Assembly (NCBI RefSeq): GCF_003933735.1
Contig: NZ_RSED01000004.1
Location: 124,001 to 188,000, forward strand
Source: Aquabacterium soli
Lineage (GTDB): Bacteria > Pseudomonadota > Gammaproteobacteria > Burkholderiales > Burkholderiaceae_C
DNA length: 64,000 nucleotides
Direction: 5' to 3'
The notes beneath the pieces were generated by a model, which worked only from the letters and a program-made list of their open reading frames with translations, did no database searches and was not told the origin of the DNA. This document shows positions 16,618 through 52,014 of the stretch, one piece after another. A program made the translations under genes and the position numbers. Every line of letters starts with the position of its first letter. Position 1 is the stretch's first letter.

Positions 16618-16620
16618 CCG

Positions 16621-19784: not shown

Positions 19785-19808
19785 GACAGTGAATTGCTCA
19801 AGGGCCGG

Positions 19809-34801: not shown

Positions 34802-35866
34802 TCAGGCCTGCCGCTCGCTCACGCCGGCGTCGGCGAAACTGGCCATCTCGCGCAGGATACGGCAGGCCGATCCCAGCAGGGGCCAGGCCAGCGCGGCGCC
34901 CGAGCCCTCACCCAGGCGCAGGCCCAGGTGCAGCAGAGGCTGGGCACCCAGCCAGGCCAGCAGGCGCGCATGGCCCGATTCGTCGGACTGGTGTGCGAAC
35001 ACGCAGCGCTGCAGCACCAGCGGCTGCACGGCCTGGGCCACGAGCACGGCGCTGGTGGCGATGAACCCATCGACCACGATCACACGGTTCTGCGCGGCCG
35101 CTTCGAGCACCGCGCCGCACATCATCGCGATCTCGAACCCGCCCAGTGCCGCCAGCACCTGCACAGGCTGGGTGGCAGGGGCGCTGGCGTTGGCGTTGGC
35201 CTTCAAGGCCTTGCGCAGCACGGCCAGCTTGCGCTGGAGGCCTGCGTCGTCCAGGCCGGTGCCGCGGCCCACGCACTGGACAAGCGGCGCGCCGGTCAGG
35301 CGGCTCATCAGCAGCGCCGCACTCGATGTGTTGCCAATGCCCATTTCGCCCAGCAGCAAGGCGTTGCCCGGCAGTTGCCTGACCACGTCGGCCCCTGCCT
35401 GCAGCGCGGCATGGCATTGCGCCAGCGTCATCGCGGGGCCCACCGACGCATCGGCCGTCCCTGGGGCGATCTTGCGCACCAACAGACCATCGCGAGGCGC
35501 GATATCACGTGCCACACCGGCATCGACCACCGTGAGCGCCAGACCATGCTGGCGGGCCAGCACGCTGACGGCCGCGCCGCCTGCCAGGAAGTTCTCGACC
35601 ATCTGCCAGGTCACGTCGCTGGGGAAAGCCGACACGCCCCGGGCGGCCAGGCCGTGATCGCCGGCGAACACGACCATCTGCGGCTGCTCCAGCGCCGGGG
35701 TTTCGCTGCGAAGGATGAGGCCCAGCTGAAGGGCCAGGCTTTCCAAGCGGCCCAGCGAGCCCAGCGGTTTGGTCTTGTGGTCGATCCGGTGACGCAGGCG
35801 CTGGGCCAGCGTGGTGTCGCGCAGGTCGGTGAGGTCAGGAACGGCGAAAGCGGGAATCTCTGTCAT
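34802..35866 (-). CDS. cobT: Nicotinate-nucleotide--dimethylbenzimidazole phosphoribosyltransferase
   Basis: A 354-residue CobT, taking ATG 35866 rather than a TTG 18 bases upstream. Conserved segments: [57 protein letters not shown] and [22 protein letters not shown]. It transfers phosphoribose from nicotinate mononucleotide to the lower-ligand base, giving alpha-ribazole phosphate. It lies 27 bp after cobQ and 21 bp before cobS. The base-making enzyme BluB is not in this window. Confidence 0.96.
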
Positions 35867-35893
35867 GGCTTGGGTGGGAAACAATGAGGGCCA

Positions 35894-37393
35894 TCAGGGA
35901 CGCTGGATCAGCGTGGCCAGCGCCCCTGGGGCAAAGTGATGATCGATGTAGTCGGCCAGGCCGTCCATCACGCGGTCGAGCGAAGGGGCCTGGGCGCCGA
36001 ACAGCGCACGCATCACGGCGTCGTCTTCGAACACGCCGTGCAGGTACAGGCCGATCACCTGCCCACGACGCCAGCCCAGCGGCTGCCCTGCGGCATCGTG
36101 CAGTATCGCTTGCGTGTCGGGGCTGCCCGCGTCTGACGAGAGCTCCGTGCGGCCATGGTGAATCTCGTAGCCCTGCACCGTCACGCCCGCCAGGGCCTGC
36201 CAGGGACGGCCAGAGCCCAGTTGCGCCGTGAACACGGCCCGCGTCTCGCGCAGCAGCTTGTCGGCATCGAAGCGTGTGTGCAGGTCCAGCAAATGCAGGC
36301 CTTGCACCATGGCCCCTGCCGGTCCCTCGACGCCGTCAGGATCGCTCAGGACCTGGCCCAGCATCTGCAAGCCGCCACAGATGCCCAGCACCGCGCCGCC
36401 ACGCCGTGCATGCTCGGTCACGGCACGGTCCAGGCCCTGGGCTCTCACCCAGGCCAGATCGGCCGTGGTGTGCTTGGAGCCTGGCAGGATCACCCAGTCG
36501 GCCCCATCCAGATCGCGCGGGTGCCGCGCCCATACCAGCCGCACGCCCGGCGCGGAGCGCAAGGGCTGGAACTCGTCGAGGTTGCTGATGCGCGGACAGG
36601 CCAGCACGGCGATGCGAACCACGGGTGCTTGGTCGCCCACGGGCCCGCTGGCTCGGTCATCGAACACACCGTCTTCTTCCGGCAGGCCATGGCCGCGCCA
36701 CATGGGCAGCACGGCCAGCGTGGGCACGCCGGTCAAGGCCTGCAACTGCTCCGGCCCCGGTGCGAGCAGGCTGGCATCACCCCGGAAGCGGTTGAGCACG
36801 AAGCCCTGGATCAGGGCACGTTCATGCTCGGGCAGCAACTGGTGCGTGCCGTAGAGATGGGCGAAGGCGCCACCGCGGTCGATGTCGGTCACCAGCAGGC
36901 AAGCCGCCCCAGCGTGCAGCGCCGTGCGCATGTTGACGTAGTCGCTGGCATGCAGGTTGATCTCGGCGGGCGAGCCCGCTCCCTCGATCACGACGACGTC
37001 GTGGGTGTCCATGAGTTCGTCCAGCGCCTGGCGAGCGTGGGGCCACACCAGGTTGCTGCGCTCACGCCAGGGCACCCGGCGCAGTTCGTCGTGCACCTGC
37101 CCCATGACGATGACCTGGCTGGCCGTGTCCTGCTCGGGCTTGAGCAGCACCGGGTTCATGCGCACATCGGGCCGCACCCTGGCAGCCAGGGCCTGGAAAT
37201 ACTGTGCGCTGCCGATCTCGCCCATGCGGCCATCCAGGCCAGGCACCACACGCGCGTTGTTGCTCATGTTCTGCGCCTTGAAGGGCGCCACCCGCAGGCC
37301 CTGCCGCGCATACCAGCGGCACAGGGCCGTGGCCAGCCAGCTCTTGCCGGCACCGCTGGTGGTGCCCAGCACCATCACTGCGCGTGCGCTCAT
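35894..37393 (-). CDS. cobQ: Cobyric acid synthase (glutamine-hydrolysing)
   Basis: A 499-residue CobQ starting at ATG 37393, which overlaps the upstream stop as ATGA. An N-terminal DTB-synthetase-like ATPase domain (VLGTTSGAGKSWLATALCRW, FKAQNMSNNARVV, VVIEGAGSPAEINL) is followed by a C-terminal class I-type glutaminase domain (GICGGLQMLGQVL with the nucleophile Cys, and GYEIHHGRTE). It amidates four side chains of adenosylcobyrinic acid diamide to give adenosylcobyric acid. Confidence 0.96.
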   Translation of the reverse strand: MSARAVMVLGTTSGAGKSWLATALCRWYARQGLRVAPFKAQNMSNNARVVPGLDGRMGEIGSAQYFQALAARVRPDVRMNPVLLKPEQDTASQVIVMGQVHDELRRVPWRERSNLVWPHARQALDELMDTHDVVVIEGAGSPAEINLHASDYVNMRTALHAGAACLLVTDIDRGGAFAHLYGTHQLLPEHERALIQGFVLNRFRGDASLLAPGPEQLQALTGVPTLAVLPMWRGHGLPEEDGVFDDRASGPVGDQAPVVRIAVLACPRISNLDEFQPLRSAPGVRLVWARHPRDLDGADWVILPGSKHTTADLAWVRAQGLDRAVTEHARRGGAVLGICGGLQMLGQVLSDPDGVEGPAGAMVQGLHLLDLHTRFDADKLLRETRAVFTAQLGSGRPWQALAGVTVQGYEIHHGRTELSSDAGSPDTQAILHDAAGQPLGWRRGQVIGLYLHGVFEDDAVMRALFGAQAPSLDRVMDGLADYIDHHFAPGALATLIQRP

Positions 37394-38475
37394 GCGGCAT
37401 CCCTCCACTGGCCTGCGCTGTGCACCAGTGCACGCTGCAAGGCCTGGCGTGCCTGCGGGCCCTGCGTGCTCAGGCGCAGCCAGCCGGGCAGGCCCAGGCT
37501 GGTGGCATCGCGCAGTTTGAGGCCCTCGGTGCGCAGGGTCTGCAGCCAGGCGTGGCGCAAGGCCGCATCACGCATGGCGGTTCCCGGCGGGCGCGCCACG
37601 AAGAATGGGGTGATCGAAGGCTGGATCTGCCAGCCCATCGAGGCCAGCAGGCTTTGCTGTTCATCACGCCAGGCCAGCAGGGTCGCCCGCGAACGGGCCA
37701 GCCAGTCCTGTGTGGCCATATCGCACCAGGCGTGCCACAAGGCCACGCCCTCGGCCGACAGCACCCAACTGGGCGCCAGCTCATGCAAGGCGGCGAGCCA
37801 TGGGGCGCCTGCCGGCTCGGGTGCCAGCAAGGCCCCGGCACGCACCCCCGTCAGCCCCAGGGCCTTGTTGGGTGACCACAGTTGCCAGCATTGGCGCGCC
37901 AGGTGCGCAGGCACAGGGTCTTCGCCCTGCAGGCGCAGTGGCTCGTAGGCACGGTCCAGCGCCACGAGCAGGCCTGCTCGACCGGCCAGGGTGTCGGACA
38001 GGCCGATCCAGAACGAAGGCGGCAGGCTGTGCCCTGTGGGATTGCAGGGTTCGCACAGCCACACCAGCGTGGGCCGCTCCGACGCAGCCAGGGCCGTCAA
38101 CAAAGCGTGGCCGTCACCATAGGCGTGTACCTGCAGGCCCAGGGCCTGCGCCGCGGCACGGTAGTCGCCATAGCCAGGCTCGGGCACCCACACTTCGCGA
38201 ACACCGTGCAGGCAGGCGGCCAGGCTCAAACGGCGGATGGCCTCGCTGCTGCCGGCCGTGGGCAGTACCCGGGCGGCATCGGCACGCCAATGCGTCGACA
38301 GGCATGCACGCAGGGCCGTGTAGCGCGGGTCGGGATAGCGGCGGCGGTCAGCCTGGGCCACGGCGTCCAGCAACCCTGGCGGCGGTGGCAAGGGGTTGGC
38401 GTTGGTGGAGAAATCCCATGTGATGGGCGAGCCATCGTCCGGGCCGCCATGTTCGACAAAGTGGGATGGGTTCAT
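37390..38475 (-). CDS. cobD: L-threonine-O-3-phosphate decarboxylase-like aminotransferase
   Basis: A 361-residue fold-type I PLP enzyme starting at ATG 38475, overlapping the cbiB stop as ATGA. Landmarks are ITWDFSTNANPLPPPPGLLDAV, LPTAGSSEAIRRL, LCEPCNPTGHSLP, a DRAYEPLRL Asp/Tyr segment and WSPNKALGLTGVRAG with the PLP-binding Lys. It decarboxylates threonine phosphate to aminopropanol phosphate, the linker that CbiB attaches to cobyric acid. Called cobC in Pseudomonas-type naming. Confidence 0.92.
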   Translation of the reverse strand: MNPSHFVEHGGPDDGSPITWDFSTNANPLPPPPGLLDAVAQADRRRYPDPRYTALRACLSTHWRADAARVLPTAGSSEAIRRLSLAACLHGVREVWVPEPGYGDYRAAAQALGLQVHAYGDGHALLTALAASERPTLVWLCEPCNPTGHSLPPSFWIGLSDTLAGRAGLLVALDRAYEPLRLQGEDPVPAHLARQCWQLWSPNKALGLTGVRAGALLAPEPAGAPWLAALHELAPSWVLSAEGVALWHAWCDMATQDWLARSRATLLAWRDEQQSLLASMGWQIQPSITPFFVARPPGTAMRDAALRHAWLQTLRTEGLKLRDATSLGLPGWLRLSTQGPQARQALQRALVHSAGQWRDAA

Positions 38476-39464
38476 GACAGGACCATGTGCAGCAACCCGC
38501 CAGCAGCCAAGGCCAGCGCGGCACCGAAGGACCAGGCCCACCACACGGCGGCCTGCGACCACACCAGGGCAAGCTCGGTGTGGCGAGCCGCCGGGCTGGG
38601 TGCCCCGGCATGCAGAGCGTACACCCCGGGCTTGCTCAGGCACACGTTCAGCAGCAAGGCCATCGCGCCCATGGGCCAGCCCCCGTTGGGAGACGGCGTG
38701 ACGGCGGCTTCGCGCCGGAGCGCGCGCCAAGACGGCACCCGGCGCGCGGCCAGGCACAAGAGCAGCGCCGTGATGCGGGCAGGCACCCACGAAAGAACGT
38801 CATCGGCGCGGGCGGCCCATTTGCCCGCCCATTCATAGCGCCCGCGGTATCCCCACATGGCGTCGGCCGTGTTGGCGAAGCGGTACAGGGCGGCGCCGGC
38901 CAGCCCGCCCAGGGCGAACCAGAACAGCGGGGCAACCACGGAATCGTTGAGGTTCTCGGCCAGGGATTCGATGGCGCTTTCGCGAACGCCTTCGGCATCG
39001 AGCGACTGAACATCGCGGCTGACCAGCCGGCTCAATCGATCGCGGCCGGCCTGCACCGAATCGGCCAGGGCCTGTTCCACCGCCGCCACTTCGTCGCGCA
39101 GCATGCGCCAGGCCAGCAAGGGCTTGAGCAGCAGGCCGATGGCCAGGGCCTGCAAGACCTGGGAGGGCAGACCGACGTCGGGATCAAGCCAATAGACCGT
39201 GCCCAGCACCAGGATCTCGACGCCCAGGCCCAGCGCCAGGGCCAGCAAGGCACCGAACATCCAGGCCAGCGCCCCGCCCAGGAAAGCCAGCGCTGCGGGC
39301 AGACGCGCCAGGGCGGGCCCCAGCATCCCCAGGTAACGCCCCATCCACACCACCGGATGCGCCCAGGCCGGTGGCTCGCCCCAGCGCCGATCGACCAGCA
39401 GGGCGATCAGCGGCGGCAGCAAGGCCGGGATCAGCCAGCTCAGCGCTTGCGGGATGAGGTCCAT
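38472..39464 (-). CDS. cbiB: Adenosylcobinamide-phosphate synthase
   Basis: A 330-residue inner membrane protein starting at ATG 39464. Conserved parts: LIALLVDRRWGEPPAWAHPVVWMGRYLG at the N-terminus, LVSRDVQSLDAEGVRESAIESLAENLNDSVVAPLFW and MWGYRGRYEWAGKWAARADDVLSWVPARITALLL. It joins aminopropanol (phosphate) to adenosylcobyric acid. It lies 11 bp after cobO and overlaps the PLP enzyme gene by 4 bp. Also called CobD in Pseudomonas. Confidence 0.94.
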   Translation of the reverse strand: MDLIPQALSWLIPALLPPLIALLVDRRWGEPPAWAHPVVWMGRYLGMLGPALARLPAALAFLGGALAWMFGALLALALGLGVEILVLGTVYWLDPDVGLPSQVLQALAIGLLLKPLLAWRMLRDEVAAVEQALADSVQAGRDRLSRLVSRDVQSLDAEGVRESAIESLAENLNDSVVAPLFWFALGGLAGAALYRFANTADAMWGYRGRYEWAGKWAARADDVLSWVPARITALLLCLAARRVPSWRALRREAAVTPSPNGGWPMGAMALLLNVCLSKPGVYALHAGAPSPAARHTELALVWSQAAVWWAWSFGAALALAAGGLLHMVLS

Positions 39465-39475
39465 CGGCAAAGCGT

Positions 39476-40045
39476 TCAGTCCTCGATGCCGCGCTGGGCC
39501 GGCACGCCAGCCTGGTAGTGGTGCTTGATGAGTTTCATCTCGGTCACCGTGTCGGCCGCATCGATCAACTCCTGCGGGCAGCCCCTGCCCGTCAGCACCA
39601 CGTTGACATGGCTGGGCCGGTCGCGCAGGGCGTCGAGCACCGGCTGCAGTTCGAGCCAGCCATAGCGCAAGGGATACATGATCTCGTCGAGCACGACCAT
39701 GAAGTGCTCGCCTTCGGCAATGGTCTGGGCCGCCCGGGCCCAACCGTCGCGGGCCAGTTGGGCAGAGTGCTCCAGATCGCGGCTCTTCCAGCTGAAACCA
39801 TCGCCCAGGCCTTCGATGGGCACGCCCAGTTTCTCGAAGACACGGTGCTCACCGAAGCGGGCGCTGGGCACCTTCATGAACTGGTAGATCTTGACGGCCT
39901 TGCCGCGGCCATGGGCGCGCAAGGCCAGGCCGAAGGCCGCCGTGCTCTTGCCCTTGCCATCGCCGGTGTGAACGAGCACCAGGCCGCGACGCTCGCCATC
40001 GGGCTTCTCGACCTGTCGGTCGACGGGGGGTTTTTCGATTTCCAT
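39476..40045 (-). CDS. cobO: Corrinoid adenosyltransferase CobO
   Basis: A 189-residue CobA/CobO-type ATP:corrinoid adenosyltransferase. A Walker A motif GDGKGKSTAAFG lies near residue 28, followed by YQFMKVPSARFGEHRVFEKLG, VVLDEIMYPLRYGWLELQPVLDAL and VVLTGRGCPQELIDAADTVTEMKLIKHHYQAGVPAQRGIED at the C-terminus. It attaches the 5'-deoxyadenosyl group to cobalt(I) corrinoids. It follows the CobN-like gene by 24 bp. Confidence 0.96.
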   Translation of the reverse strand: MEIEKPPVDRQVEKPDGERRGLVLVHTGDGKGKSTAAFGLALRAHGRGKAVKIYQFMKVPSARFGEHRVFEKLGVPIEGLGDGFSWKSRDLEHSAQLARDGWARAAQTIAEGEHFMVVLDEIMYPLRYGWLELQPVLDALRDRPSHVNVVLTGRGCPQELIDAADTVTEMKLIKHHYQAGVPAQRGIED

Positions 40046-40069: not shown

Positions 40070-43000
40070 TCAGGCCGTGGCTGGCACGCGGGTCGGTGGG
40101 CGCCGAGCTTGCCACACCGCACCGCACGCAGCCCACAGGGCCAGCAGCACCCAGGTGAGCAAGGTGGCCAGAGAGGGCCACGGCGATGCAGACACCGTGG
40201 GCACATCGGCCTGGCGTTGCAGCAGCACGCCTTGAGGTGGCGGGGGCGGCTGCGCGACGGACGGCGCTGGCGGTGGCAGGGGCTTGACTTGCGCGGCCTG
40301 CTCGGCCTGCTGTGGTGGGGCCATGGGCGCATCCGCAGACACGGCGTCGTGCAGCTCTCGCGCCACCCACCCGCGCACGCTGCCCAGCTCGGCATGCAGT
40401 GGGGCCTCGCGCGTCAGCTCGCGGTACAACCCGGCCAGTTGCTCTCGCGTGGCCGCATCAGGTTGCCAGTAGCGCATGCGCTCGGCCTGCACCAGCCGCT
40501 CCAGCGCCTGGGCATAGGCCTGGGGGTGGCTGCGCATCCACTGCGGCAGGCCCAGCTGGTGCTTGTCCTTGACCAGCACCTCGTAGAAGTTCTGCCAATG
40601 GTCGGGGCGCACCGTGTCCGGCGACGTGACCTGCCAGCCCCAGGTGAACTGCAGGGCCTTGAGCACCTGCAGTGTGCCCGCATAGCCCTCCTGCTTCTGG
40701 GCCTGCAACCAGCCCGGGTGCAGGTAGCGCGACTGCATCTCGAGCGCGATCACGCGCTGGGCAGATTCGGTGTGCACCTCGCTCGTGTCCTGCAGCTGGC
40801 TCACGTACAAGCCCAGGGGCTGGGTGCTGCCGGCGCTGCGCGCGGCCGCGGCCAGACCGCCCAGGTACTGGAAGGGGTCGTCGGAGCTGACCATGGCGTA
40901 CAGATGCGAGCTGCGCGACAGCAGCGCCGCCTGGGTCTGGCGCAGGTGCGCCCCCAGGGCCTGCGCCGCTGCGCCTGAAGCCACGCCGGACAGGGGTTCG
41001 CCGTCCACATAGGGCTGGCTCATGCGCTGCAGGAACATCTCGCCCAGCCGGGCATCGTCGCGCTGCACCCCGTCGGATTGAACCGCCTCGGACAGGCCGG
41101 TACCGTAGTCGCCCTGCGCATTGCCGAACACACGGGCCTGGGCCAGCGCACGGGCCTGTGCAGGTGCGATGCCACGGCGCTGCAGGTCGGCCTGCACCTG
41201 GGCCGTGTTGCGCACGATGGCGTTGCCAGGCTCGGCCTCCGCGGCCAGGCGCACCCCCTGGTCGACCAGCGCCATCAGCGCAGGAAACTGGTCGCGGTAA
41301 GAGCCGGTGATGCTGAGCAGCACGTCCACGCGGGGGCGTTGCAGTTCGCGCAAGGGAATCACCTCCAGGCGCTGCGGGCGGCCCGAGTCGTCCCACACCG
41401 GCCGCATGCCGAGGGCCACCAAGGCCTGCGCCTCCATGATGCCCTGGTGGCGCAAGGTCTCGCCGGCCCACAGCGACAGCGCCAGCCGGCTGGGCATGGC
41501 ACCGCCATGCGCCTGCCGCCACTGCGCGAGCCAGTCCTTGAACAGGCCCTCGGCCACCTCGTAGGCGCGGCGGGTCGGCAGGCGGGCCGGGTCCAGGCCC
41601 GTGAGGTTGCGGCCGGTGGGCAGGCTGTCCGGGTTGCGGATGGGATCGCCGCCGTACGCCGCCTCGATGAAACGCCCTTCCAGCGCACGCAGCAGGCCGG
41701 GCATCTCGCCTTCTGTCGACAACAGGGCTTCCAGGGCCTGGGCGCGCAAGGCCAGGGCCTTCAGCGCGGGTGAATCGATGGGCTTGCGCTCCGCGCGGTT
41801 GGGCACAGGGCCGTCGGCGTGGCCAGGTCGCAGGTCCAGGTGGCTGGCCGCCTCGGCGTCACGCAGCGCCACATGCAGCCAGCGGGCCGGCCGGGCCGTG
41901 GCCACCGACTCGTGGTTGATCAGGAAGGCCTCGTCGATGTCTTCGCCCAGGGCCTCGATCAAGGGCTTGCGCAAGGCCTGCAGGATGGTCTGCTGTCGCT
42001 GGGCTGCATCGGGCACCCGGCCGAACACCGCCAGACCCTTGGGCTGGGAGCTCTGTGCCAGGGCATCCAGGTAGGGATGGAGCAATTCCAGAAAGCCGGA
42101 GAAATCACCCGCGATGCGCTCGGCCGTCCAGCCCAGGTCGCGGTGCAGCTGGTGTTCGACGAACTGCTCGATCAGCTGCTTCTCCAGCGTCGCCTTGGTG
42201 GGGCCCGGGTCCACGGTCTCCCATTCGTGCATCAGTTCGTGCATGTGCGCCATGCGTGCCTCGAAACCCGCGGGGGCGAACACTGGCGTGCGGTGGCTCA
42301 CGAGGACCGCGCGGCCGCGCCGCTTGGCCGTGAGCGCCTCGCCCAGGTTGTCGACGATGTAGGGATACACCACGGGCACATCGCCCAGCGGCAGCAAGGC
42401 ATCGTCGAGCATGTCCAGGCCACGCGCCTTGCCGGGGGCCCACTCCTGCGTGCCGTGCGTGCCGAAGTGGATCAGGGCATCGGCCTGCCGCGCCCACAGG
42501 TAGACCGCCAGGTAGTGGTGCGACAGCGGCGCCTTGCTGCGGTGCATGAAGGGGTTCTGGCCCTGGTGCAGCGTCTCCTCGCGCGGCGGCTGGGGCAGCA
42601 CCGACAGCTTGCCCACGGCCAGCCGGGGGATGACGAACACACGCCGGCCTTGCCACTCGACCACGTAGCGGCTGCGCTCGGGCGGCCCCCACTGGGACTC
42701 GATGCGTTGGCGGATGGCTGCAGGCAGGCCACGCCACCAGGCCATGTAGTCGGACAGGGGCAAGGCCGCTGCCTGGTCATGCGCCAGCAGGCCCTGCAGA
42801 TCCGTGCCCGGGTAGTAGGCTGCCAGCAAGGGCTTGAGGCCATCGATCCAGGCCTGCTCGGGCAGCGCATGGGTGTCGTAACCCGCCTGGGCCAGGCCTT
42901 GCGAGACCACCTCCAGGCTGCGCGGTACGTTGAGGAAGGACGCACCGAAGTTGCTGCCGCCGGGCGGGTAGTTGTAGACCATGGCGACCAGGCGCTTGTC

Positions 43001-44239
43001 GCCCGCAGGCCGGGTCTGCAAGCTGACGAGGCGGCGCGCCTTGGCGGCGACAGCGCGGGCCTGGCGCTCGATCAAGGCCACTCGCCGGCCTTGGTCGGCA
43101 TGGGCCGTCACCACCACCGGGTCGATGCCGCCGGCACCCTCTGGCTGAGCCAGGTAGAAGGGCACATCGGCCTGTGACAGGCCATTGTCGTCACGCGACC
43201 ACTGCGCCTCGTCGCCGCCGCGGTAGGGCTGGGTGATCAGCAAGGGCACGCCCCAGCGCGACCACAGCGGCTGCAGCGAGGCCGCACGCGGCAGCAACTG
43301 GTGCGACACGATCACACGCGGGTGCACCACCGTGCCGCCCTGCGCATCGGGCCAGGTCAGCAAGGCCTGCAGGCCGGGCTCGTCGACCTGCTGGCCGAAC
43401 ACCGCGTAGGCGGCCATGCCCTCTTGCGCGAACAGGTGCAGCCACTGGTCCAGCCACTCGGTGTTGCCGTCGATGAAGTGATACCGGTGCACCAGCACGG
43501 CCACGGCGGGCCTGGCACGCAGGCTCGACTGGGTCTGCATCCACCGCGACATGGCCTGCGCATCGGCCATCAGCGCGGGCGCATCCGGGTGGTACAGCCC
43601 ACGCGCGGGCCAGGGGCGCGGCTCGGGCAAGGCCGGCGCTGCGCGCCCCGCGGCATGGGCCGCGGCCAGCGCCACGGCAGCACGCACGTTGGCCTGCCCC
43701 CCCGCGCGCAGGTAGGCCGCCATGCGGGACTCCAGAGGCGTGAGCGACAAGGCCGGGTCGTCGCCAGCAGGCAGCACCCAGCTCACCGGCAGGCCTGGCC
43801 GCTGCCGGCGCTCCTGCGCCAGGGCCTCGGCCAGCAAGCCGCCCAGCCGGGCCTGCACCGAGGCATGCGGCGCATCGACCCACACCACCGAGGCCTGCCG
43901 CAGGGCCGCCTGCAAGGCCTGCAGTTCCGTCGGCGACAGCGTGGCCGGACCGCGCAAGGGATGGTCGATGTGCGCAAAGCGCAAGCCGGCCTCACGGGCC
44001 AGCCGTTCGACCAGGGCCGTGCGTGGCACGGGCGTCACCTCGCCAGTGATCCACAGAAGGGTGCCAGACGCCGGGGCCGGGGCCGGGGCCGGGGCCGGGG
44101 CCGGGGCTTGCGCGCGCGCCGCGCCAGAGCACAGCACCAGCAAGCCGAGCAGGGCCAGAAAGCCCATGAAGCCCCTGCATGCCATGAAACCGATCAGGCG
44201 CGCCATCGACGGCACCCGGCGCCCTCCACGCGCGCGCAT
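40070..44239 (-). CDS. CobN/magnesium-chelatase-H-like protein with signal peptide and C-terminal anchor
   Basis: A 1,389-residue protein of the CobN/BchH/ChlH large-subunit family. Core motifs include DALIHFGTHGTQEWAPGKARG (near residue 590), VYPYIVDNLGEALTAKRRGRAVLVSHRTP, VFGNAQGDYGTGL and YAMVSSDDPFQYLGGL. Unlike cytoplasmic CobN it starts with a signal-peptide-like segment (GFLALLGLLVLCSGAARA, about 26-42), then a PAPAPA linker, and ends in a membrane helix (WPSLATLLTWVLLALWAACGAVW) with a short basic tail. It is therefore probably periplasmic and inner-membrane anchored. ATG 44239 is used; ATG 44206 would give a more standard signal peptide, and TTG 44251 is also possible. It lies 8 bp after the ExbD-like gene; no CobS/CobT AAA+ or vWA chelatase subunits are present. 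Substrate unproven. Confidence 0.85.
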   Translation of the reverse strand: MRARGGRRVPSMARLIGFMACRGFMGFLALLGLLVLCSGAARAQAPAPAPAPAPAPASGTLLWITGEVTPVPRTALVERLAREAGLRFAHIDHPLRGPATLSPTELQALQAALRQASVVWVDAPHASVQARLGGLLAEALAQERRQRPGLPVSWVLPAGDDPALSLTPLESRMAAYLRAGGQANVRAAVALAAAHAAGRAAPALPEPRPWPARGLYHPDAPALMADAQAMSRWMQTQSSLRARPAVAVLVHRYHFIDGNTEWLDQWLHLFAQEGMAAYAVFGQQVDEPGLQALLTWPDAQGGTVVHPRVIVSHQLLPRAASLQPLWSRWGVPLLITQPYRGGDEAQWSRDDNGLSQADVPFYLAQPEGAGGIDPVVVTAHADQGRRVALIERQARAVAAKARRLVSLQTRPAGDKRLVAMVYNYPPGGSNFGASFLNVPRSLEVVSQGLAQAGYDTHALPEQAWIDGLKPLLAAYYPGTDLQGLLAHDQAAALPLSDYMAWWRGLPAAIRQRIESQWGPPERSRYVVEWQGRRVFVIPRLAVGKLSVLPQPPREETLHQGQNPFMHRSKAPLSHHYLAVYLWARQADALIHFGTHGTQEWAPGKARGLDMLDDALLPLGDVPVVYPYIVDNLGEALTAKRRGRAVLVSHRTPVFAPAGFEARMAHMHELMHEWETVDPGPTKATLEKQLIEQFVEHQLHRDLGWTAERIAGDFSGFLELLHPYLDALAQSSQPKGLAVFGRVPDAAQRQQTILQALRKPLIEALGEDIDEAFLINHESVATARPARWLHVALRDAEAASHLDLRPGHADGPVPNRAERKPIDSPALKALALRAQALEALLSTEGEMPGLLRALEGRFIEAAYGGDPIRNPDSLPTGRNLTGLDPARLPTRRAYEVAEGLFKDWLAQWRQAHGGAMPSRLALSLWAGETLRHQGIMEAQALVALGMRPVWDDSGRPQRLEVIPLRELQRPRVDVLLSITGSYRDQFPALMALVDQGVRLAAEAEPGNAIVRNTAQVQADLQRRGIAPAQARALAQARVFGNAQGDYGTGLSEAVQSDGVQRDDARLGEMFLQRMSQPYVDGEPLSGVASGAAAQALGAHLRQTQAALLSRSSHLYAMVSSDDPFQYLGGLAAAARSAGSTQPLGLYVSQLQDTSEVHTESAQRVIALEMQSRYLHPGWLQAQKQEGYAGTLQVLKALQFTWGWQVTSPDTVRPDHWQNFYEVLVKDKHQLGLPQWMRSHPQAYAQALERLVQAERMRYWQPDAATREQLAGLYRELTREAPLHAELGSVRGWVARELHDAVSADAPMAPPQQAEQAAQVKPLPPPAPSVAQPPPPPQGVLLQRQADVPTVSASPWPSLATLLTWVLLALWAACGAVWQARRPPTRVPATA
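44071..44106. repeat. GGCCGG-type hexanucleotide repeat in the CobN-like gene
   Basis: About five to six tandem copies of a GGGGCC/GGCCCC hexamer encode the (Ala-Pro)n linker just after the signal peptide. Each unit is two codons, so copy-number change would lengthen the linker without shifting the frame. Confidence 0.85.
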
Positions 44240-44247
44240 GTCCGCGC

Positions 44248-44616
44248 TCAACGCGGCCCCTTCGCCGGCTGGGCGGACGGTGCCGAGGCACCACCCGGCT
44301 CCGGCACGTAGACGATGTTGCCGTCCTTGAGCTTGTAGGCCACGCCGGCCCGCTCGCCCTGGCCGGCCCCTGCCTGCCCTGCGCCCTTGAACTTCACTTC
44401 CTTGCCGTTCTCGCGCACGATCACTTCCATGTCTGGCGAGCCGGCGTTCTTGATGATGGTGACGCGGTCGTCGCCATCGGGCTGCGTGTTGGACTTGGCC
44501 GCCACCGCCGTCAGCAGCGCGACCACCAGCACCAGGAACACATCGACCAGGTTGACGGCCGACAGCATCGGGTCGTCGTCATCCTCGGCCAGCAGATGCA
44601 GGTGCTTGAAGCTCAT
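44248..44616 (-). CDS. DUF2149 protein, ExbD/TolR-like subunit
   Basis: A 122-residue protein starting at ATG 44616, overlapping the upstream stop as ATGA. An acidic N-terminus (AEDDDDPM) precedes one membrane helix, SAVNLVDVFLVLVVALLTAV, which lines up with the TolR helix in this window (PFIDVMLVLLIIFMV). The Asp at residue 25 corresponds to the proton-path Asp of ExbD/TolR. The rest is a periplasmic domain (RVTIIKNAGSPDMEVIVRENGKEVKFKG, VAYKLKDGNIVYVPEP) and a Pro/Ala tail. With the preceding ExbB-like protein it should form a proton-driven motor acting on the CobN-like protein encoded next. Confidence 0.82.
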   Translation of the reverse strand: MSFKHLHLLAEDDDDPMLSAVNLVDVFLVLVVALLTAVAAKSNTQPDGDDRVTIIKNAGSPDMEVIVRENGKEVKFKGAGQAGAGQGERAGVAYKLKDGNIVYVPEPGGASAPSAQPAKGPR

Positions 44617-45089
44617 GCGGCCACCCCGCGGGCCTTGCGCACATCCAGCAGCTCGGCCAGCAGCCAGCGTCGGCGCACCGAGTAGACCGTCAGGCCCACG
44701 CTGGCTGCGGCCAACGCCAGAACCACGCCTGCAAAGGCGCTGCTGAACACCGCCAGGGCCTGCTGCCCCTGGCCGGCCGCCACGCTCTGCAGGGCCGGGC
44801 CCAGCGGGATCATGGTGGCGATCAGGCCCAGCATCGGGCTCAGGCGGCTGAGCAGGCGCACGGGCTCGAGCTGGCGCACCACGGCCAGCTCCAGCTCCTC
44901 CAGCGACAGGGATGCATCGTTCGACGGCAGGCTGGCGTAACGGCCGCCCCGGCGCTGCCAGCCCTCCATCAGGGTGCGGCCCCCCAACCACAGGGCATAG
45001 ACGAAGGCCAGTCCCACCAGGACCAGCACAGGCCACAACAAGGCCTGGGCCACTTGAGAGAATCCAGCTTCAATCCACATGGTGTGCAT
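44613..45089 (-). CDS. MotA/TolQ/ExbB-like proton channel protein
   Basis: A 158-residue protein. The start is ATG 45089 (or 45080), inside the 3' end of cobB. Three membrane helices are visible: ALLWPVLVLVGLAFVYALWLGG, LSRLSPMLGLIATMIPLGPAL and AVFSSAFAGVVLALAAASVGLTVYSV. The latter two carry the ExbB/TolQ signature (compare YVGLFGTIWGIM and ATAIGLFAAIPAV of TolQ here). It is shorter than TolQ, with a small cytoplasmic loop (about 38-78). Coupled to the DUF2149 gene by an ATGA overlap. It is not the TonB-type ExbB expected to energise BtuB, because no tonB is present; the fixed partners are DUF2149 and the CobN-like protein. Confidence 0.82.
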   Translation of the reverse strand: MHTMWIEAGFSQVAQALLWPVLVLVGLAFVYALWLGGRTLMEGWQRRGGRYASLPSNDASLSLEELELAVVRQLEPVRLLSRLSPMLGLIATMIPLGPALQSVAAGQGQQALAVFSSAFAGVVLALAAASVGLTVYSVRRRWLLAELLDVRKARGVAA

Positions 45090-46401
45090 CCGGTGAGAAC
45101 AAGGCCGCCACGGCGGCCGGGTTGGAAGGAAAGTACAGGTGCAGGAAGCTGGCATGCAGCCGCCCTGCCCTGTCTGACTGGTAGATCGCTTCGGGCTTGC
45201 CATTGAAGCGCTGCGAGCGCGTCCAGCCCGAGGGCTCCAGTGGCGACTGCATGGCCGCGTGGTGGAAGGTGTGCCCGCGCACCGCGCCTTGAGACAGGGC
45301 GGCCTCGTGCAGGCCCAGGTTGACCAGGCGCGGCTGCATCGCCGCCTCACCGGGCAACAGCCCCCACATCGCGGCCCCCTGGCCCTGCTTGTCGACCAGG
45401 TGCTCCAGCAGCGCCAGCATGCCGCCGCATTCCGCCACGATGGGGCGGCCCTGTGCATGGTGGCTGGCCACCGCCTGCCTCATGGCGTCGTTGCCCGACA
45501 AGGCCTCGAGATGCAGCTCAGGGTACCCGCCGGGCAGGTACAGCGCATCGGTCGCAGGCGGCAAGGCCTGGTCCCGCAAGGCAGAGAAATACAGCAGCTC
45601 TGCACCGAGCGCGTGCAGGGTGTCCACGTTGGCGCGGTACAGGAAGGCGAAGGCCTCGTCCTTCGCGATGGCGATGCGCACGCCTTCGAGCAGGCGCGGT
45701 ATCGGCTGCGGAGGTACTGACAGGGTGAAGGCCACGGGCTCGGGCGTCTCGGGCTTCAGTCGCCCCAAGGCATCGGCCGCCAGGTTCAGGCGTGCATCGA
45801 TGTCCTGCACCTCGTCGGCCTGCACCAGGCCCAGGTGGCGCGATGGCATGCCGAAGCCTTCGTCCCGCGGCAGGCCGCCGAACCACTTCATGCCGGGCGG
45901 CAGGCTCTCACGCAACATGGCCGCATGCCCGTCGCTGGCGACGCGGTTGGCCAGCACACCGGCCAATCTCAAGCCCTCTCGGTAGGTGGCCAGGCCATGG
46001 GCAACGGCGCCGAAGGTCTGGGCCATGCCCGAGGCGTCGATCACGGCCAGCACGGGCAGGCCCAGGCGCAGCGCCAGATCCGCGGTGGACGACAGCCCGT
46101 CGTACAGGCCCATCACGCCTTCGACCAGGATCAGGTCGGCCTCGGCGGCCGCCTGCCACAGCAGTTCACGGCAGTGCGCCTCGCCGCCCATCCACAGGTC
46201 GAGCTGGTAGACCGGATGCCCGCTGGCGCGCTCCAGCACCATGGGGTCGAGAAAATCCGGGCCAGCCTTGAAGACGCGCACGCGGCGCCCCTGCTGGCGA
46301 TGCCAGCGGGCGAGCGCGGCCGTGGCCGTGGTCTTGCCCTGGCCGGATGCCGGGGCACTGACGAGCAAGGCCGGGCAGTGGCGATCCGGTGTTCCGCTCA
46401 T
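45070..46401 (-). CDS. cobB: Cobyrinate a,c-diamide synthase
   Basis: A 443-residue CobB/CbiA starting at ATG 46401, overlapping the btuD stop as ATGA. The N-terminal ATPase domain (VSAPASGQGKTTATAALARW, FKAGPDFLDPMVLERASGHPVYQLDLWM, LVEGVMGLYDG) is followed by a glutaminase-like domain with the catalytic Cys in AECGGMLALLEHLV and the C-terminal GHTFHHA. It amidates the a and c side chains of cobyrinic (or hydrogenobyrinic) acid. Finding it without ring-building genes means either those lie elsewhere or the cell salvages early corrinoids. Confidence 0.95.
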   Translation of the reverse strand: MSGTPDRHCPALLVSAPASGQGKTTATAALARWHRQQGRRVRVFKAGPDFLDPMVLERASGHPVYQLDLWMGGEAHCRELLWQAAAEADLILVEGVMGLYDGLSSTADLALRLGLPVLAVIDASGMAQTFGAVAHGLATYREGLRLAGVLANRVASDGHAAMLRESLPPGMKWFGGLPRDEGFGMPSRHLGLVQADEVQDIDARLNLAADALGRLKPETPEPVAFTLSVPPQPIPRLLEGVRIAIAKDEAFAFLYRANVDTLHALGAELLYFSALRDQALPPATDALYLPGGYPELHLEALSGNDAMRQAVASHHAQGRPIVAECGGMLALLEHLVDKQGQGAAMWGLLPGEAAMQPRLVNLGLHEAALSQGAVRGHTFHHAAMQSPLEPSGWTRSQRFNGKPEAIYQSDRAGRLHASFLHLYFPSNPAAVAALFSPDAHHVD

Positions 46402-47222
46402 GGCGCAGCTCCACGGCCCTGCCCTGCAGTGGGCGGCGCGGCGCAAGGCAGCGCCACCCAGTGACCGTCCACCTGGCTCAGGCGCACGCGCTGGTCAAAC
46501 ACCGCGCTCAGCGCCCGGTGCGCGGCGGCCTCGCCTGTGGGCCCCTGGTGGACCACGCGGCCTTGCGCCATCACGATCAGCTCATCGGCCTGCAGGGCCA
46601 TGTTCAACTCGTGCAGCACGCTGACCACGGTCGCGCCGCGGGCACGCTCGGCACGCACGATGTCCAGCCAGTCGGCCTGGTGGGGCGGGTCCAGGTGGGC
46701 CAGCGGTTCGTCCATCAGCAGGGTCGAGGCCTGCACGGCCAGGGCCCGCGCCAGCAGCACCCGCTGACGCTCGCCGCCGGACAGCCGGCCCATGGGTCGG
46801 TCACCCCACTCCCAGCATTGGGTGGCCTGCATGGCCTGCTGCACGGCCGCCTGGTCGGCCTCGCTGGGCGGCGCCAGCCAGGGCTGGTGAGGAAGGCGGC
46901 CCAGCATCACCACATCCAAGGCACGCAGATCCTCGGCACCCGTCTCGGCTTGTCCCAGCCAGGACAAGGCCCGTGCCCGATCCTTCGCCGGCCAGGCCTT
47001 CAGTGCACGGCCCTGCAATTGCACCTGCCCGTCACAGGGCTGCAAGCCGGCCAATGTGCGCAGCAGGGTGGATTTGCCCGCACCGTTGGGGCCGACGATG
47101 GCCGTCCAGCGGCCCGTTGGCACCTGCAGTGAGATGGCGCCCAGGATGTCGCGGCCGGACAGCCGCACGGAGCGGATGTCGGCCGACAGGGCCTGGTGTG
47201 CAAGCGTTGAAACAGGATTCAT
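46398..47222 (-). CDS. btuD: Corrinoid ABC transporter ATP-binding protein BtuD
   Basis: A 274-residue FecE/BtuD-type ATPase starting at ATG 47222. Walker A is GPNGAGKST, the signature motif is RLSGGERQRVLLARAL, and Walker B is LLMDEPLAHLD with a following H-loop (VVSVLHELN). It works with BtuC and BtuF to import corrinoids from the periplasm. It lies 10 bp after btuC and overlaps cobB by 4 bp. Confidence 0.93.
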   Translation of the reverse strand: MNPVSTLAHQALSADIRSVRLSGRDILGAISLQVPTGRWTAIVGPNGAGKSTLLRTLAGLQPCDGQVQLQGRALKAWPAKDRARALSWLGQAETGAEDLRALDVVMLGRLPHQPWLAPPSEADQAAVQQAMQATQCWEWGDRPMGRLSGGERQRVLLARALAVQASTLLMDEPLAHLDPPHQADWLDIVRAERARGATVVSVLHELNMALQADELIVMAQGRVVHQGPTGEAAAHRALSAVFDQRVRLSQVDGHWVALPCAAPPTAGQGRGAAP

Positions 47223-47232
47223 GGCATCGCCC

Positions 47233-48204
47233 TCAAGCCCGGTGCATGCGCCACAGCAGGTAACCCCCACCGAGCACCGCCGTGAGCACCCCCACCGGCA
47301 GCTCCAGCGGCGCCAGCACCCACCGGGCCGCGATGTCGGCGCCCAGCAGCAGCACGCCGCCGGCCATCGCCGACAGCACCAGCAGCGGCCCGTGCGTGGT
47401 GTGCACCCGGCTACGCACCAGGTGCGGCGCCACCAGACCGACGAAAGAAATCAGGCCGGCCTGTGCCACGGCCGCTCCGGTGGCCAAAGCCATCGCGCCC
47501 ACCAGCAGTGCACGCACCAGGGTCAGGCGCACGCCCAGGCTGATGGCGGCCGCGTCTCCCAGGCTCAGCGCGTCGAGCGCACGGCTGCAGGCCCAGGCCA
47601 CGACCACGCTGCACACCAGCACCGCCATCAGGATCCACGCACTGCCCCATCCCAGAAAGCCCGTCGTGCCGAGCATGAAGGCCTGCATGGCCCGCATGAT
47701 GTCCGGCACCATCAGCATGGTCAGCGCACTCAGCGCGCCCAGCACGACACCCACCACCACGCCGGCCAGCAGCAGGCGCAGCGTGTGCTGCACGCCCTTG
47801 GCCAGCACCAGTGTCAACAGCACCGCCCCGACGGCACCCAGGAAGGCGGCACCGGTCAGCCCCAGGCGCATGGCCAGGCTGGTGGCGGCAGGGCTCACCC
47901 CCACCAGGGCCAGGAAGATGGCCACACCCAGGGCCGCGCCGGAAGAGCTGCCCAGCAGGTAGGGATCGGCCAGCGGGTTGCGGAACACGCCCTGCGCGAT
48001 CGCACCGCCCAGGCCCAGCAGCGCACCGGCCAGCCAGGCGCCCACGCCGCGTGGCGCGCGGATGTCCCAGGCGATGTCCCAGGCCAGCGCGTCACCGGAG
48101 GCCATCCAGGGTGGGGACCAGCCTGTGCTGCCCACCGCCACACCCAGCACCAGCAACGCAGCCGTCGTGAGCATCAGCACCAGCCCCCAGGCGACGACCT
48201 TCAT
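47233..48204 (-). CDS. btuC: Corrinoid ABC transporter permease BtuC
   Basis: A 323-residue FecCD-family permease with about ten membrane helices. Family segments are RAPRGVGAWLAGALLGLGGAIAQGVFRNPLADPYLLGSSSGAALGV, LSLGDAAAISLGV and GLISFVGLVAPHLVRS. It starts with an ATGA overlap of btuF. Specificity for corrinoids is inferred from the riboswitch and neighbours. Confidence 0.93.
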   Translation of the reverse strand: MKVVAWGLVLMLTTAALLVLGVAVGSTGWSPPWMASGDALAWDIAWDIRAPRGVGAWLAGALLGLGGAIAQGVFRNPLADPYLLGSSSGAALGVAIFLALVGVSPAATSLAMRLGLTGAAFLGAVGAVLLTLVLAKGVQHTLRLLLAGVVVGVVLGALSALTMLMVPDIMRAMQAFMLGTTGFLGWGSAWILMAVLVCSVVVAWACSRALDALSLGDAAAISLGVRLTLVRALLVGAMALATGAAVAQAGLISFVGLVAPHLVRSRVHTTHGPLLVLSAMAGGVLLLGADIAARWVLAPLELPVGVLTAVLGGGYLLWRMHRA

Positions 48205-49130
48205 GGCTGTCCCCCGGTCGGTGCTGCAGGCACGCCCACGGCATCACGCAGGCACGAGGCCATGATGCGCGCAGCCTCACCCATGCGCGGGCCCGGACGC
48301 GAGAGCACATCGCCCTGCTCCGGGGTGAAGGCGCAGACATGGCGCTCCTTGACCGCCCGGATGCGGGACCAGCCCGGCCGGGTGGGCAGGCCCATCGCAC
48401 CCTTGGCCGACACCATGATCACCTGGGGATCGGCACGCACCACGAACTCGGGATTGAGCTTGGGGAACGGCCCCAGGCGCGACGGCACGATGTTGACCGC
48501 CCCCAGGCGCGTCAGCGTGTGCCCGATGAAGGAGGACTCCCCTGCGGCATAAGGTGCGCTGTCGATCTCGTAGTAGACGCTCAGGCCGCGGGCCGCTGGC
48601 GGCACGCTGCGCGCCGCATCACCCACCTGGGCCTCCAGGCGGGCCCACAGGCGCTCGCCCGCTGGCCCCTGTCCCAGCAACTGCGAGACCTTGCCTGCCA
48701 CGCGGCGCACGTCCTCGTAGGTCTTGGGCTCCAGCGCCACCACCTTCAGGCCCAGGCCTTCCAGACGGTCGATCACGCGCGAGGACACGGCCAGCAGCAC
48801 CACGTCGGGCCGCAGCGCCACGATCATCTCGACATTGGCATCGTCCAGGCCGCCCATCTTGGGCAGGGACTTGACCGACGCAGGGTGGTTGGAATAGCGG
48901 TCCGTGCCCACCAGGCGCGCACAGGCCCCGAGCTCGCACACGGTCTCGGTGAGCGAGGGCAACAGGGTCACCACCCGGGTGGGCAGGGCCGGCAGGCTCA
49001 CGCTCACGCCACGGTCGTCGACCACGCTCACGCCAGCGGCCATGGCGGCGCCGGAGGCGGCTGCCATCGTCCAGCACAGCGCCGCCCTCGGCGACAGCAA
49101 GCCACGCAGGGCCTTCATCAGAACGAACAT
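48201..49130 (-). CDS. btuF: Periplasmic corrinoid-binding protein BtuF
   Basis: A 309-residue class III (BtuF/FhuD-type) binding protein. An N-terminal signal peptide (ALCWTMAAASGAAMAAG) is followed by VVTLLPSLTETVCELGACARLVGTDRYSNHP, VEMIVALRPDVVLL and KLNPEFVVRADPQVIMVSAKG. It delivers corrinoids to BtuCD after BtuB brings them across the outer membrane. It overlaps btuC by 4 bp and lies 15 bp after cobP. Confidence 0.93.
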   Translation of the reverse strand: MFVLMKALRGLLSPRAALCWTMAAASGAAMAAGVSVVDDRGVSVSLPALPTRVVTLLPSLTETVCELGACARLVGTDRYSNHPASVKSLPKMGGLDDANVEMIVALRPDVVLLAVSSRVIDRLEGLGLKVVALEPKTYEDVRRVAGKVSQLLGQGPAGERLWARLEAQVGDAARSVPPAARGLSVYYEIDSAPYAAGESSFIGHTLTRLGAVNIVPSRLGPFPKLNPEFVVRADPQVIMVSAKGAMGLPTRPGWSRIRAVKERHVCAFTPEQGDVLSRPGPRMGEAARIMASCLRDAVGVPAAPTGGQP

Positions 49131-49145: not shown

Positions 49146-49736
49146 TCAAGCCGGATCGACATCGGACACGGCGCGCGTCCAGGGCTGGCCCGCCACCATC
49201 AAGGTCAGCTGGGCACAACGCCTGGCCACCGCCTGGTTCAGCCAGCCCAGCTCGTCGACAAAGAGGCGCATCTCACGCCCCAGCGGCACCACACCCCAGC
49301 CCACCTCGTTGGACACGAACACCACGGGCGAAGCCAGCGTGGGCAGCGTGGCCAGCACGGCCTCGCGCTCCGCTTCCCAAGCCTGGTGATCGGGCTGGCC
49401 GCTCAAGGGCATCAGCCAGTTGGTCAACCACAGGGTCAGGCAATCCACCAGCAGCAGGCGGCCAGGCGCGGACGCCTCCCGCAAAGCCTGCGCCAGATTC
49501 AGCGGGGCCTCCACCGTGCTGAAGCCGGCGGGGCGCTCGCGCTGATGGCGCTCGATGCGCGCGCGCATCTCGTCATCGCCCGCCAATGCGGTGGCCACGA
49601 CCACCACGCCACGCTCCGCGCCGCCATCACGCCACCGACGCGCCAGCGCCTCGGCATGCCGTGACTTGCCGCTGCGCTGCCCGCCCACCACCAGGTGATG
49701 AGGCGATGAGGATGGTGCGGTGGGAACGTGGTCCAT
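49146..49736 (-). CDS. cobP: Adenosylcobinamide kinase / adenosylcobinamide-phosphate guanylyltransferase
   Basis: A 196-residue CobU/CobP. The P-loop GGQRSGKSRHAEALA lies near residue 18; then VVATALAGDDEMRARIERHQRERP (with the His that takes GMP), LLLVDCLTLWLTNWL and VFVSNEVGWGVVPLGREMRLFVDELGWLNQ. It phosphorylates and then guanylylates adenosylcobinamide, the entry point for salvage of imported cobinamide. Second gene after btuB, 33 bp from its stop. Confidence 0.95.
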   Translation of the reverse strand: MDHVPTAPSSSPHHLVVGGQRSGKSRHAEALARRWRDGGAERGVVVVATALAGDDEMRARIERHQRERPAGFSTVEAPLNLAQALREASAPGRLLLVDCLTLWLTNWLMPLSGQPDHQAWEAEREAVLATLPTLASPVVFVSNEVGWGVVPLGREMRLFVDELGWLNQAVARRCAQLTLMVAGQPWTRAVSDVDPA

Positions 49737-51653: not shown

Positions 51654-51750
51654 GATTGAGAAAAACAAGCAAGAGCCCCGCCTGCATCCCCGCAAGCATG
51701 GAGCGACATGGCACGCCGACATGAACCCCGGAAGGCTCGGTGCCGTCACA

Positions 51751-51966
51751 CCCCTTGCTGGCCGGTATCCGGGCTAGGCGGTTCGACCCGTGAAACCTTC
51801 CCAGATGCAGAACACCCAGTGGTTGTGAACACGGGCGAAGCCCCTTGCAGGGCTTGACCGCCGACCGTTGCGGGGGCAGCGCAAGTCGGGCTGGCACCGG
51901 TGGTGCGACAGACCCTCTTGCTTCCCGTTTAACCGCACCGGGCGAACCCCGGCGCGAGCACCAACG
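51751..51966 (-). ncRNA. Cobalamin (B12) riboswitch of the btuB operon
   Basis: On the minus strand the leader holds the conserved cobalamin-aptamer parts in order: GGTTAAACGGGAAGC, a GCCAGCCCGACTTGCG segment, CTGCCCCCGCAACGGTC (compare CCCGCCACTGT), the internal helices, and the B12 box AGCCCGGATACCGGCC at about 51757-51776. The last box base lies about 104 nt before the btuB ATG. It should shut off the downstream genes when adenosylcobalamin is plentiful. The intervening leader contains no obvious terminator, so control may be by blocking translation. Part of the 413-bp gap 51654-52066. Confidence 0.93.
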
Positions 51967-51972
51967 GCCATG

Positions 51973-51978
51973 ATTGTA
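51973..51978 (-). promoter_or_regulatory. -10 element of the btuB riboswitch transcript
   Basis: TACAAT on the minus strand, in CCCTTACAATCATGG, lies about 7 bp before the start of the recognisable aptamer (about 51966). No strong -35 is seen. It is back to back with the plus-strand -10 at 52015. Confidence 0.6.
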
Positions 51979-52014
51979 AGGGAGGGCCCCAGCCCCTGGC
52001 CTGGTTTCGGCGCC

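Follow-up and report, generated by a model that had tools for sequence, protein, structure and literature searches.

An exported CobN-like protein with a putative proton motor of its own in a cobalamin-riboswitch operon of Aquabacterium soli

A 64,000-nucleotide stretch of the Aquabacterium soli genome (assembly GCF_003933735.1, contig NZ_RSED01000004.1, positions 124,001–188,000), called the window here, has on its minus strand three coupled genes, which encode an ExbB/TolQ-like proton-channel protein (44613–45089), an ExbD-like DUF2149 protein (44251–44616) and a CobN-like chelatase of the exported BtuS/HmuS type (40070–44239). All coordinates are window positions. By its sequence, the CobN-like protein belongs to the exported BtuS/HmuS branch of PF02514, and the ExbB-like and DUF2149 proteins appear to go with this chelatase rather than with a TonB-dependent receptor, a point presented here as new. 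We infer, at about even confidence, that the protein is a B12-regulon member of this branch with a proton motor of its own, which would edit the metal of scavenged corrinoids in the periplasm. Publications are cited by PubMed Central (PMC) number and, except for PMC12905483, for the accessible part of their text.

The three open reading frames (ORFs) lie where a preliminary description of the window had placed them, and their coupling is close: the ExbB-like and DUF2149 genes overlap by an ATGA, and the CobN-like frame stays open up into the DUF2149 stop codon. Counted from its ATG, the CobN-like ORF has 1,389 codons and matches PF02514 over its full length (875 bits, profile positions 2–1089 of 1090), with a score of 1502 bits against the NCBIfam model for CobN, NF004644 (cut-off 1248). 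Its closest relatives in the PDB are Mycobacterium tuberculosis CobN (7c6o), HmuS (9d26) and ChlH (4zhj); the kinship with HmuS, put forward in the preliminary description, is supported. An export signal, a linker and a C-terminal helix had also been described, and inspection and hydropathy bore this out: the N-terminus has a hydrophobic segment ending in ARA-QAPAPAPA, a putative export signal, and the C-terminus has a proline-rich linker followed by a hydrophobic membrane helix (40112–40174). By inspection, 18 of 18 full-length relatives also have the export signal and the C-terminal membrane helix, while 18 of 18 controls of the CobN/BchH type from the same order lack the helix.

The first active-site motif, HFGTHG (42452–42469), is as described for HmuS, its second histidine corresponding to HmuS His538 (PMC12583661), and both of its histidines are among 74 columns that are invariant in 19 proteins. 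The second motif, DDPFQYLGG (40856–40882), is of the CobN type. Across the clades only its GG is invariant, though the window clade retains DDPFQYLGG; the receptor-linked clade has this motif in D as well as H versions. HmuS proper has LSLDHxxEFMGG where the window has SSDDPFQYLGG. In place of the Met-rich domain IV insertion of HmuS (an unaligned stretch of ~281 residues) the window protein has ~134 unaligned residues containing no methionine, and the N-terminal domains of the two proteins, on which a comparison at the HmuS heme ligands Met79 and His254 would rely, did not align in the comparison with PDB relatives. A heme-specific HmuS was ruled out by the second motif and domain IV, and an ordinary cytoplasmic cobaltochelatase by the export signal and anchor together with the lack of CbiC in the host. 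The absence of CobS and CobT, claimed earlier, holds for the operon genes scanned, none of which is a CobS/CobT chelatase gene (a genome-wide CobS/CobT search was not made), and no second CobN was found in the host genome. The NF004644 model labels the exported protein (40070–44239) as CobN, at the equivalog level, and B12 predictions made from genomes may therefore take it for a cobaltochelatase.

Taken alone, the ExbB-like protein has no Pfam match at 1e-3, and its match to MotA_ExbB (E 0.0065, 16.7 bits) is under the family cut-off. As a family it does match: 23 of 23 members match MotA_ExbB at E up to 1, the best at 2e-12, and a PDB sequence search with the family gave two weak MotA matches. 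The AlphaFold model (predicted local distance difference test, pLDDT, 92) has ExbB/TolQ chains for all 43 of its top fold matches (best E 0.013, TM-scores 0.27–0.55). As modelled, the protein is of ExbB fold with three membrane helices and falls within the motor family, in keeping with the channel proposed in the preliminary description. Channels of the MotA/TolQ/ExbB-ExbD type have a threonine in the second and in the third transmembrane helix (TM2 and TM3). The TM2 threonine (44814–44816 in the window) is kept in 23 of 23 proteins from the class and order samples described below and in 73 of 73 from the named loci.

The DUF2149 protein (PF09919, 87 bits) gave chance matches only in a PDB sequence search. 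Its model has a confident helix at residues 16–42, which contains Asp25 (44542–44544), and a small beta part of low confidence. That Asp25 stands at the proton-path position had been proposed before, and a profile-profile comparison of the helix alone with 23 ExbD/TolR proteins (HHalign) agrees, pairing Asp25 with the ExbD/TolR aspartate over 24 columns (probability 69%, E 4.4e-5). The membrane acid is aspartate in 23 of 23 proteins of the class and order samples, in 73 of 73 of the named loci (one of them by eye) and in the plasmid loci L211 and L212; in the third plasmid locus, L213, it is glutamate, the single exception among all loci read. A likeness of HmuV to ExbD is already in print (PMC10100974), so the ExbD likeness of DUF2149 is not new.

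The trio recurs in other bacteria. Three samples were used: a class sample of 185 genomes, an order sample of 150 and a phylum sample of 398. In the class and order samples 23 DUF2149 loci were read, the window included. An ExbB-like gene is beside DUF2149 in all 23 (abutting in 22, 0.7 kb away in L062), and a complete or partial CobN-like gene lies within 4 kb in 22, counting one locus cut by a contig edge (L055), one with a truncated ORF only (L054) and one with the CobN-like gene on the other strand (L057). In L054 (positions 9105–10409, genome G075) the DUF2149 and ExbB-like genes are intact beside the truncated ORF. PF02514 adjoins 11 of 12 DUF2149 loci in the order sample. In the phylum sample it is present in 17 of 17 genomes with DUF2149, compared to 134 of 398 overall (P 4.5e-9); the nearness of the two genes was readable at 15 of the 18 DUF2149 places, those outside being G650, G599 and the second place of G673.

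A further 80 named loci are the top 80 among 575 confirmed ones when these are ordered by their resemblance to aligned DUF2149-linked proteins, which gives them a bias that the order and phylum samples do not have. Both partners are near and on the same strand in 73 of the 80, where near means the nearest same-strand match at any distance: mostly abutting, ~1 to 3 kb away in some receptor-linked loci, and 5 kb away from the copy counted in L147. Among the other seven, six end no more than 1.5 kb from the gene, and five of the seven genomes, including that of the uncut L119, have DUF2149 elsewhere. A Pfam scan of 95 neighbouring ORFs gave family tallies only; many of these ORFs had been selected by a mechanical rule, and some may not be real genes. 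A tree of the 80 (80 rows, quick method, midpoint root) grouped 24 rows as a riboswitch clade, A1, next to a receptor-linked clade of 38 rows, each with support 100, with clade C separate.

A short motif recurs in the linker of the CobN-like protein, ~20 residues ahead of the C-terminal helix. Its form is hydrophobic-x-G-x-x-[LM]-[E/Q]-x-[V], and the linker around it otherwise drifts and is often proline-rich. Among proteins with a visible helix, clades A and B have the core G-x-x-[LM] in 83 of 83, where shuffling of the linkers would give 11, and clade C has it in 0 of 9; 7 of 99 proteins in which no C-terminal helix was seen were excluded (five truncated by an edge, one with a split ORF and one with a weak helix). 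The core is also present in the three plasmid loci, one each from Pseudomonadota, Thermodesulfobacteriota and Bacteroidota. The leading hydrophobic residue is found with the core in 72 of the 83; the window motif, QGVLLQRQ (40211–40234), is without it. In clade C the absence of the motif goes together with a shorter DUF2149 protein, without the stretch around MExxVxxG. The D-box of TonB, which binds ExbD, is likewise flanked by prolines and adjoins the membrane anchor (PMC10907165), and the linker motif of the chelatase is placed like it.

The corrinoid setting is given by the operon. The preliminary description overlooked a cobalamin riboswitch at 51743–51980 on the minus strand (RF00174, 70.1 bits, gathering threshold 31.5), at the head of what ORF reading and Pfam, NCBIfam/TIGR and Rfam scans show to be a single cobalamin operon. 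From the riboswitch the order is btuB-cobU-btuFCD-cbiA, then the ExbB-like, DUF2149 and CobN-like genes, then cobO-cbiB-cobC-cobQ-cobT-cobS and a phosphatase gene. In the aerobic pathway cobalt is inserted between the CobB and CobO steps, and the gene order CobB, CobN-like, CobO mirrors this reaction order. Rfam was used for the survey because a B12-box pattern was too weak. A cobalamin riboswitch is present in five of six like operons (none above threshold in L117), at six of seven stand-alone loci (L115 begins at a contig edge), in L211 and L212 though not in L213, and within ~10 kb in eight of nine clade C genomes; a scan of six receptor-linked loci found none. Since clade C is separate in the tree, B12 control either had more than one origin or has been lost. 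At one clade C locus, L092, a CbiA-type gene abuts that for the CobN-like protein, and a Peripla_BP_2 gene and one for a TonB receptor lie nearby.

CbiC was not found in the host genome, which indicates that the host salvages corrin, and the corrinoid-salvage setting suggested earlier is upheld by this, the riboswitch and the B12 genes. CbiC is also absent in 12 of 14 hosts with the operon form and in 4 of 6 with the stand-alone form; some of these genomes were assembled from metagenomes, and one carries a contamination flag. In the window the module adjoins the importer BtuFCD, which makes a corrinoid the probable product there. Elsewhere in the same genome (L174, contig C74, 2980–7186) a second cobalamin riboswitch precedes genes for two PEP-CTERM proteins, one with DUF4465, and a TonB receptor – by sequence, a candidate system for capturing corrinoids at the surface of a betaproteobacterium.

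A different substrate has to be weighed first. The module might harvest trace metals, stripping iron, zinc, nickel or cobalt from a metal-tetrapyrrole or other chelate, with the regulator reflecting the scarce metal; where a B12 riboswitch is in control, the yield would be cobalt, or else zinc for enzymes that work without B12, such as MetE. We consider this unlikely, though several observations favor it. Of the seven stand-alone riboswitch units whose head is complete, six open with ZrgA, a family of zinc-uptake proteins (L211 is the exception), which fits plain metal supply. In L105, L109, L113, L114, L116 and L122 the riboswitch is followed by zrgA ahead of the chelatase module. A relative of ZrgA binds zinc or cobalt (PMC11481552), HmuS frees iron from heme (PMC12583661), and PA1922–1925 of Pseudomonas are under Zur (PMC4542158, PMC9431628). 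On a Runella plasmid (L213, 548–14806, Bacteroidota) the module is within a NiFe-hydrogenase hyp operon, beside a nickel-permease-like gene whose NicO match, at 21.7 bits, is under the cut-off of 27.7. Two loci of clade A2 have, upstream of the CobN-like gene, a Zur-like palindrome, one exact and one with one mismatch. However, these are 2 of 51 A2 loci, with 0 of 29 A1 loci, and a Zur box as a family-wide feature of the receptor-linked clade was unsupported. No ZrgA was found near the operon form, where the adjoining importer is BtuFCD, and free cobalt would not yield corrin in the 12 of 14 operon-form hosts without CbiC.

A second alternative concerns the pair rather than the substrate: the ExbB-like and DUF2149 proteins could power BtuB, the TonB-dependent receptor, in the way published for HmuU/HmuV and the receptor HmuR (PMC10100974, PMC12583661), the CobN-like protein being an independent enzyme. 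The operon in the window does include btuB, and a TonB receptor is in the stretch examined at 69 of the 80 named loci. However, L211 is a bare unit of riboswitch, ExbB-like, DUF2149 and CobN-like genes with no receptor match, and the riboswitch units L105, L109, L116 and L122 have none in the stretch examined, which in L109 ends within the chelatase gene. The receptor of L113 is ~6 kb away on the other strand, and those of L114 go with its second module. In L212 the pair and a separate ExbB-ExbD-TonB set share one operon, and the A. soli genome has eight ExbD-family matches outside the module, one of them in the window near 16.6–17.0 kb. The receptor-free riboswitch units, the ExbB-ExbD-TonB set of L212 and the co-occurrence of DUF2149 with PF02514 point to the chelatase as the client, and the receptor-energising explanation is judged distinctly improbable. 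Two of these loci have further features: in L114 (Azonexus hydrophilus, 8938–19830) two modules of different clades stand back to back, one led by a riboswitch and one with TonB receptors, and in L212, on a Trichlorobacter lovleyi plasmid, two cobalamin riboswitches are in tandem (4008–4474) ahead of a TonB receptor.

Least probable is a CobN-like protein without metal chemistry, a periplasmic corrinoid-binding chaperone or remodelling device moved or opened by the pair: the operon and motor evidence apply to it equally, any metal step could run in either direction, and in Bacteroides fragilis mutation of both btuS1 and btuS2 did not stop porphyrin release (PMC6460266), but the 74 invariant columns with both first-motif histidines, the DDPFQYLGG kept in the window clade and the requirement of HmuS turnover for the second histidine of HFGTHG (PMC12583661) argue against it.

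The preferred reading, an exported chelatase with its own proton motor, would work as follows. The ExbB-like and DUF2149 proteins would form a motor of the 5:2 type in the inner membrane. The motor would hold the chelatase by its membrane helix and by the short motif in the linker, much as ExbD holds TonB by the D-box, and would supply the work that the AAA+ partners CobST or ChlID give the cytoplasmic relatives. The chelatase would act in the periplasm, between BtuB and BtuF, on scavenged corrinoids or related tetrapyrroles, either putting cobalt into metal-free corrin or taking a wrong metal out. BtuFCD, CbiA and CobO would then receive a usable cobalt corrinoid. A broader form of this reading is held more tentatively, as possible but well short of even: a proton motor with an enzyme client that pulls a periplasmic class I chelatase by a D-box-like motif, replaces the AAA+ ATPase of CobNST/ChlHID, and inserts or swaps corrinoid metal before import in B12 scavengers without corrin synthesis, the same unit serving the nutrition with iron, zinc and nickel elsewhere. 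All of the settings found are compatible with a single motor-chelatase unit that has been linked to different nutrients.

Several observations weigh against the preferred reading, besides the ZrgA genes and the frequent receptors. Cobalt removal from corrin is chemically hard. The TM3 threonine is kept in 0 of 70 readable channel proteins of the window clade (3 of 73 were unread), so the proton path is not canonical; clades B and C keep a threonine in TM3, by eye. A fold search with the DUF2149 model (pLDDT 66) found no ExbD match for the periplasmic part. The linker motif of the 83 proteins was picked on the same sequences in which it was counted, and these share ancestry and represent few independent events. 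Locus L072 (genome G241) has DUF2149 and an ExbB-like gene, with no PF02514 gene in the genome. We know of no experiment on any member of the window clade. Purified HmuS is reported to convert heme to protoporphyrin IX with NADH and to need no ATP (PMC12583661), and as HmuUV is not mentioned for this activity in the accessible text, heme demetallation probably does not depend strictly on the motor. The porphyrin released by the B. fragilis double mutant counts here as well. The proton-driven chelatase of the preliminary description stands in part: co-occurrence, riboswitch control, the receptor-free and TonB-containing operons and the D-box-like motif favor it, while the lost TM3 threonine and the active HmuS tell against its strict form.

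The remaining genes of the operon, all on the minus strand, were assigned as follows. The btuB-type receptor ORF (49770–51749; TIGR01779, TonB-B12, 420 bits, under its cut-off of 600) shares 7 bases with the riboswitch, and its real start is probably further inside. It is followed by cobU (49146–49736; NF004469, 178 bits, cut-off 161), a btuF-type periplasmic binding protein (48201–49130; TroA_like above cut-off, BtuF model 62 bits, under its cut-off of 234), a btuC-type permease (47233–48204), assigned by sequence inspection and conserved place without a family-library scan, a btuD-type ATPase (46398–47270; PF00005, 101 bits) and cbiA/cobB for cobyrinate a,c-diamide synthase (45070–46446; NF002204, 435 bits, cut-off 254). 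Beyond the module are the cobO/btuR adenosyltransferase (39476–40045; PF02572, 211 bits), cbiB/cobD (38472–39743; PF03186, 268 bits) and a cobC/CobD-type aminotransferase (37390–38790; TIGR01140, 148 bits, under its cut-off of 291), the latter two probably starting further inside. The last are cobQ for cobyric acid synthase (35894–37408; PF07685, 161 bits), cobT for nicotinate-nucleotide–dimethylbenzimidazole phosphoribosyltransferase (34802–35884; TIGR03160, 437 bits), cobS for ribazoletransferase (33884–34780; TIGR00317, 118 bits, cut-off 110) and a histidine phosphatase resembling the CobC phosphatase (33351–34106; PF00300, 64 bits).

Class I chelatases are textbook ATP-driven machines. The module described here may be a metal-handling enzyme run on proton flow instead, recurring as a unit in other bacteria. 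If so, the ExbBD/TolQR family would gain an enzyme client beside transport, the cell envelope, flagella, gliding and defence; the presence of HmuU and HmuV in heme operons would be accounted for; a step would be added, going by sequence, to corrinoid salvage; and a CobN label that can pass as evidence for B12 synthesis would be corrected.

The BtuS family reportedly goes back to Rodionov 2003. Titles and abstract openings on CobN, HmuS, BtuS and their partners, Rodionov 2003 and subscription papers aside, stated no proton-driven chelatase and no linker motif, and in a 2026 review of Ton/Tol motors (PMC12905483) DUF2149, chelatase and HmuS never occur. Precedents that the preliminary description overlooked are the BtuS family and a Pseudomonas operon. 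BtuS was proposed as a third CobN type, for metalloporphyrin salvage (PMC6460266); the accessible part of that account does not mention a proton-motor partner, the linker motif or receptor-free units. In Pseudomonas aeruginosa, PA1922–PA1925 encode a TonB receptor, a CobN-like protein, a proton-channel-family protein and a DUF2149 protein in one operon (PMC9431628, PMC4542158), though under Zur control and in another gene order. Plasmid pSZ77 of T. lovleyi has a CobN-like gene without CobS/CobT beside TonB genes, and the exact role of this CobN is called unknown (PMC3403914); its accessible part does not describe the ExbB-like/DUF2149 pair, and the word riboswitch does not occur in the text of the paper, though both are present by sequence.

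HmuS-HmuU-HmuV of the Bacteroidota hmu operons likewise combine an exported, anchored CobN-like protein with an ExbB-like and a DUF2149 protein (PMC10434189, PMC10100974, PMC12583661, PMC13227078), with HmuUV assigned in print to the receptor HmuR (PMC10100974, PMC12583661), but in a heme operon rather than a B12-riboswitch operon, and HmuS (9d26) has DHxxEFMGG and a long Met-rich insert in domain IV, where the window protein has DDPFQYLGG and no such long Met-rich insert. CobN of CobNST and ChlH/BchH share the PF02514 core and the HxGxH motif, and the second motif of the window protein is like that of CobN 7c6o, but these large subunits have no membrane helices (PMC13227078) and use ATP-dependent partners (PMC12583661). 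ExbBD-TonB and TolQRA resemble the module in the ExbB fold, the TM2 threonine, the aspartate in the ExbD place and a client with one helix, a proline-rich linker and a short motif; they differ in that the client here is an enzyme anchored by its C-terminus, the TM3 threonine is lost, and the periplasmic part of DUF2149 has no ExbD fold match. The exported BtuS/HmuS branch is already in print for Bacteroides heme operons and for the Zur operon PA1922–1925 of Pseudomonas, and what is presented as new is the partnership of the pair with the chelatase, the conservation of the aspartate, the linker motif, and a corrin-salvage host with a CobN-like second motif.

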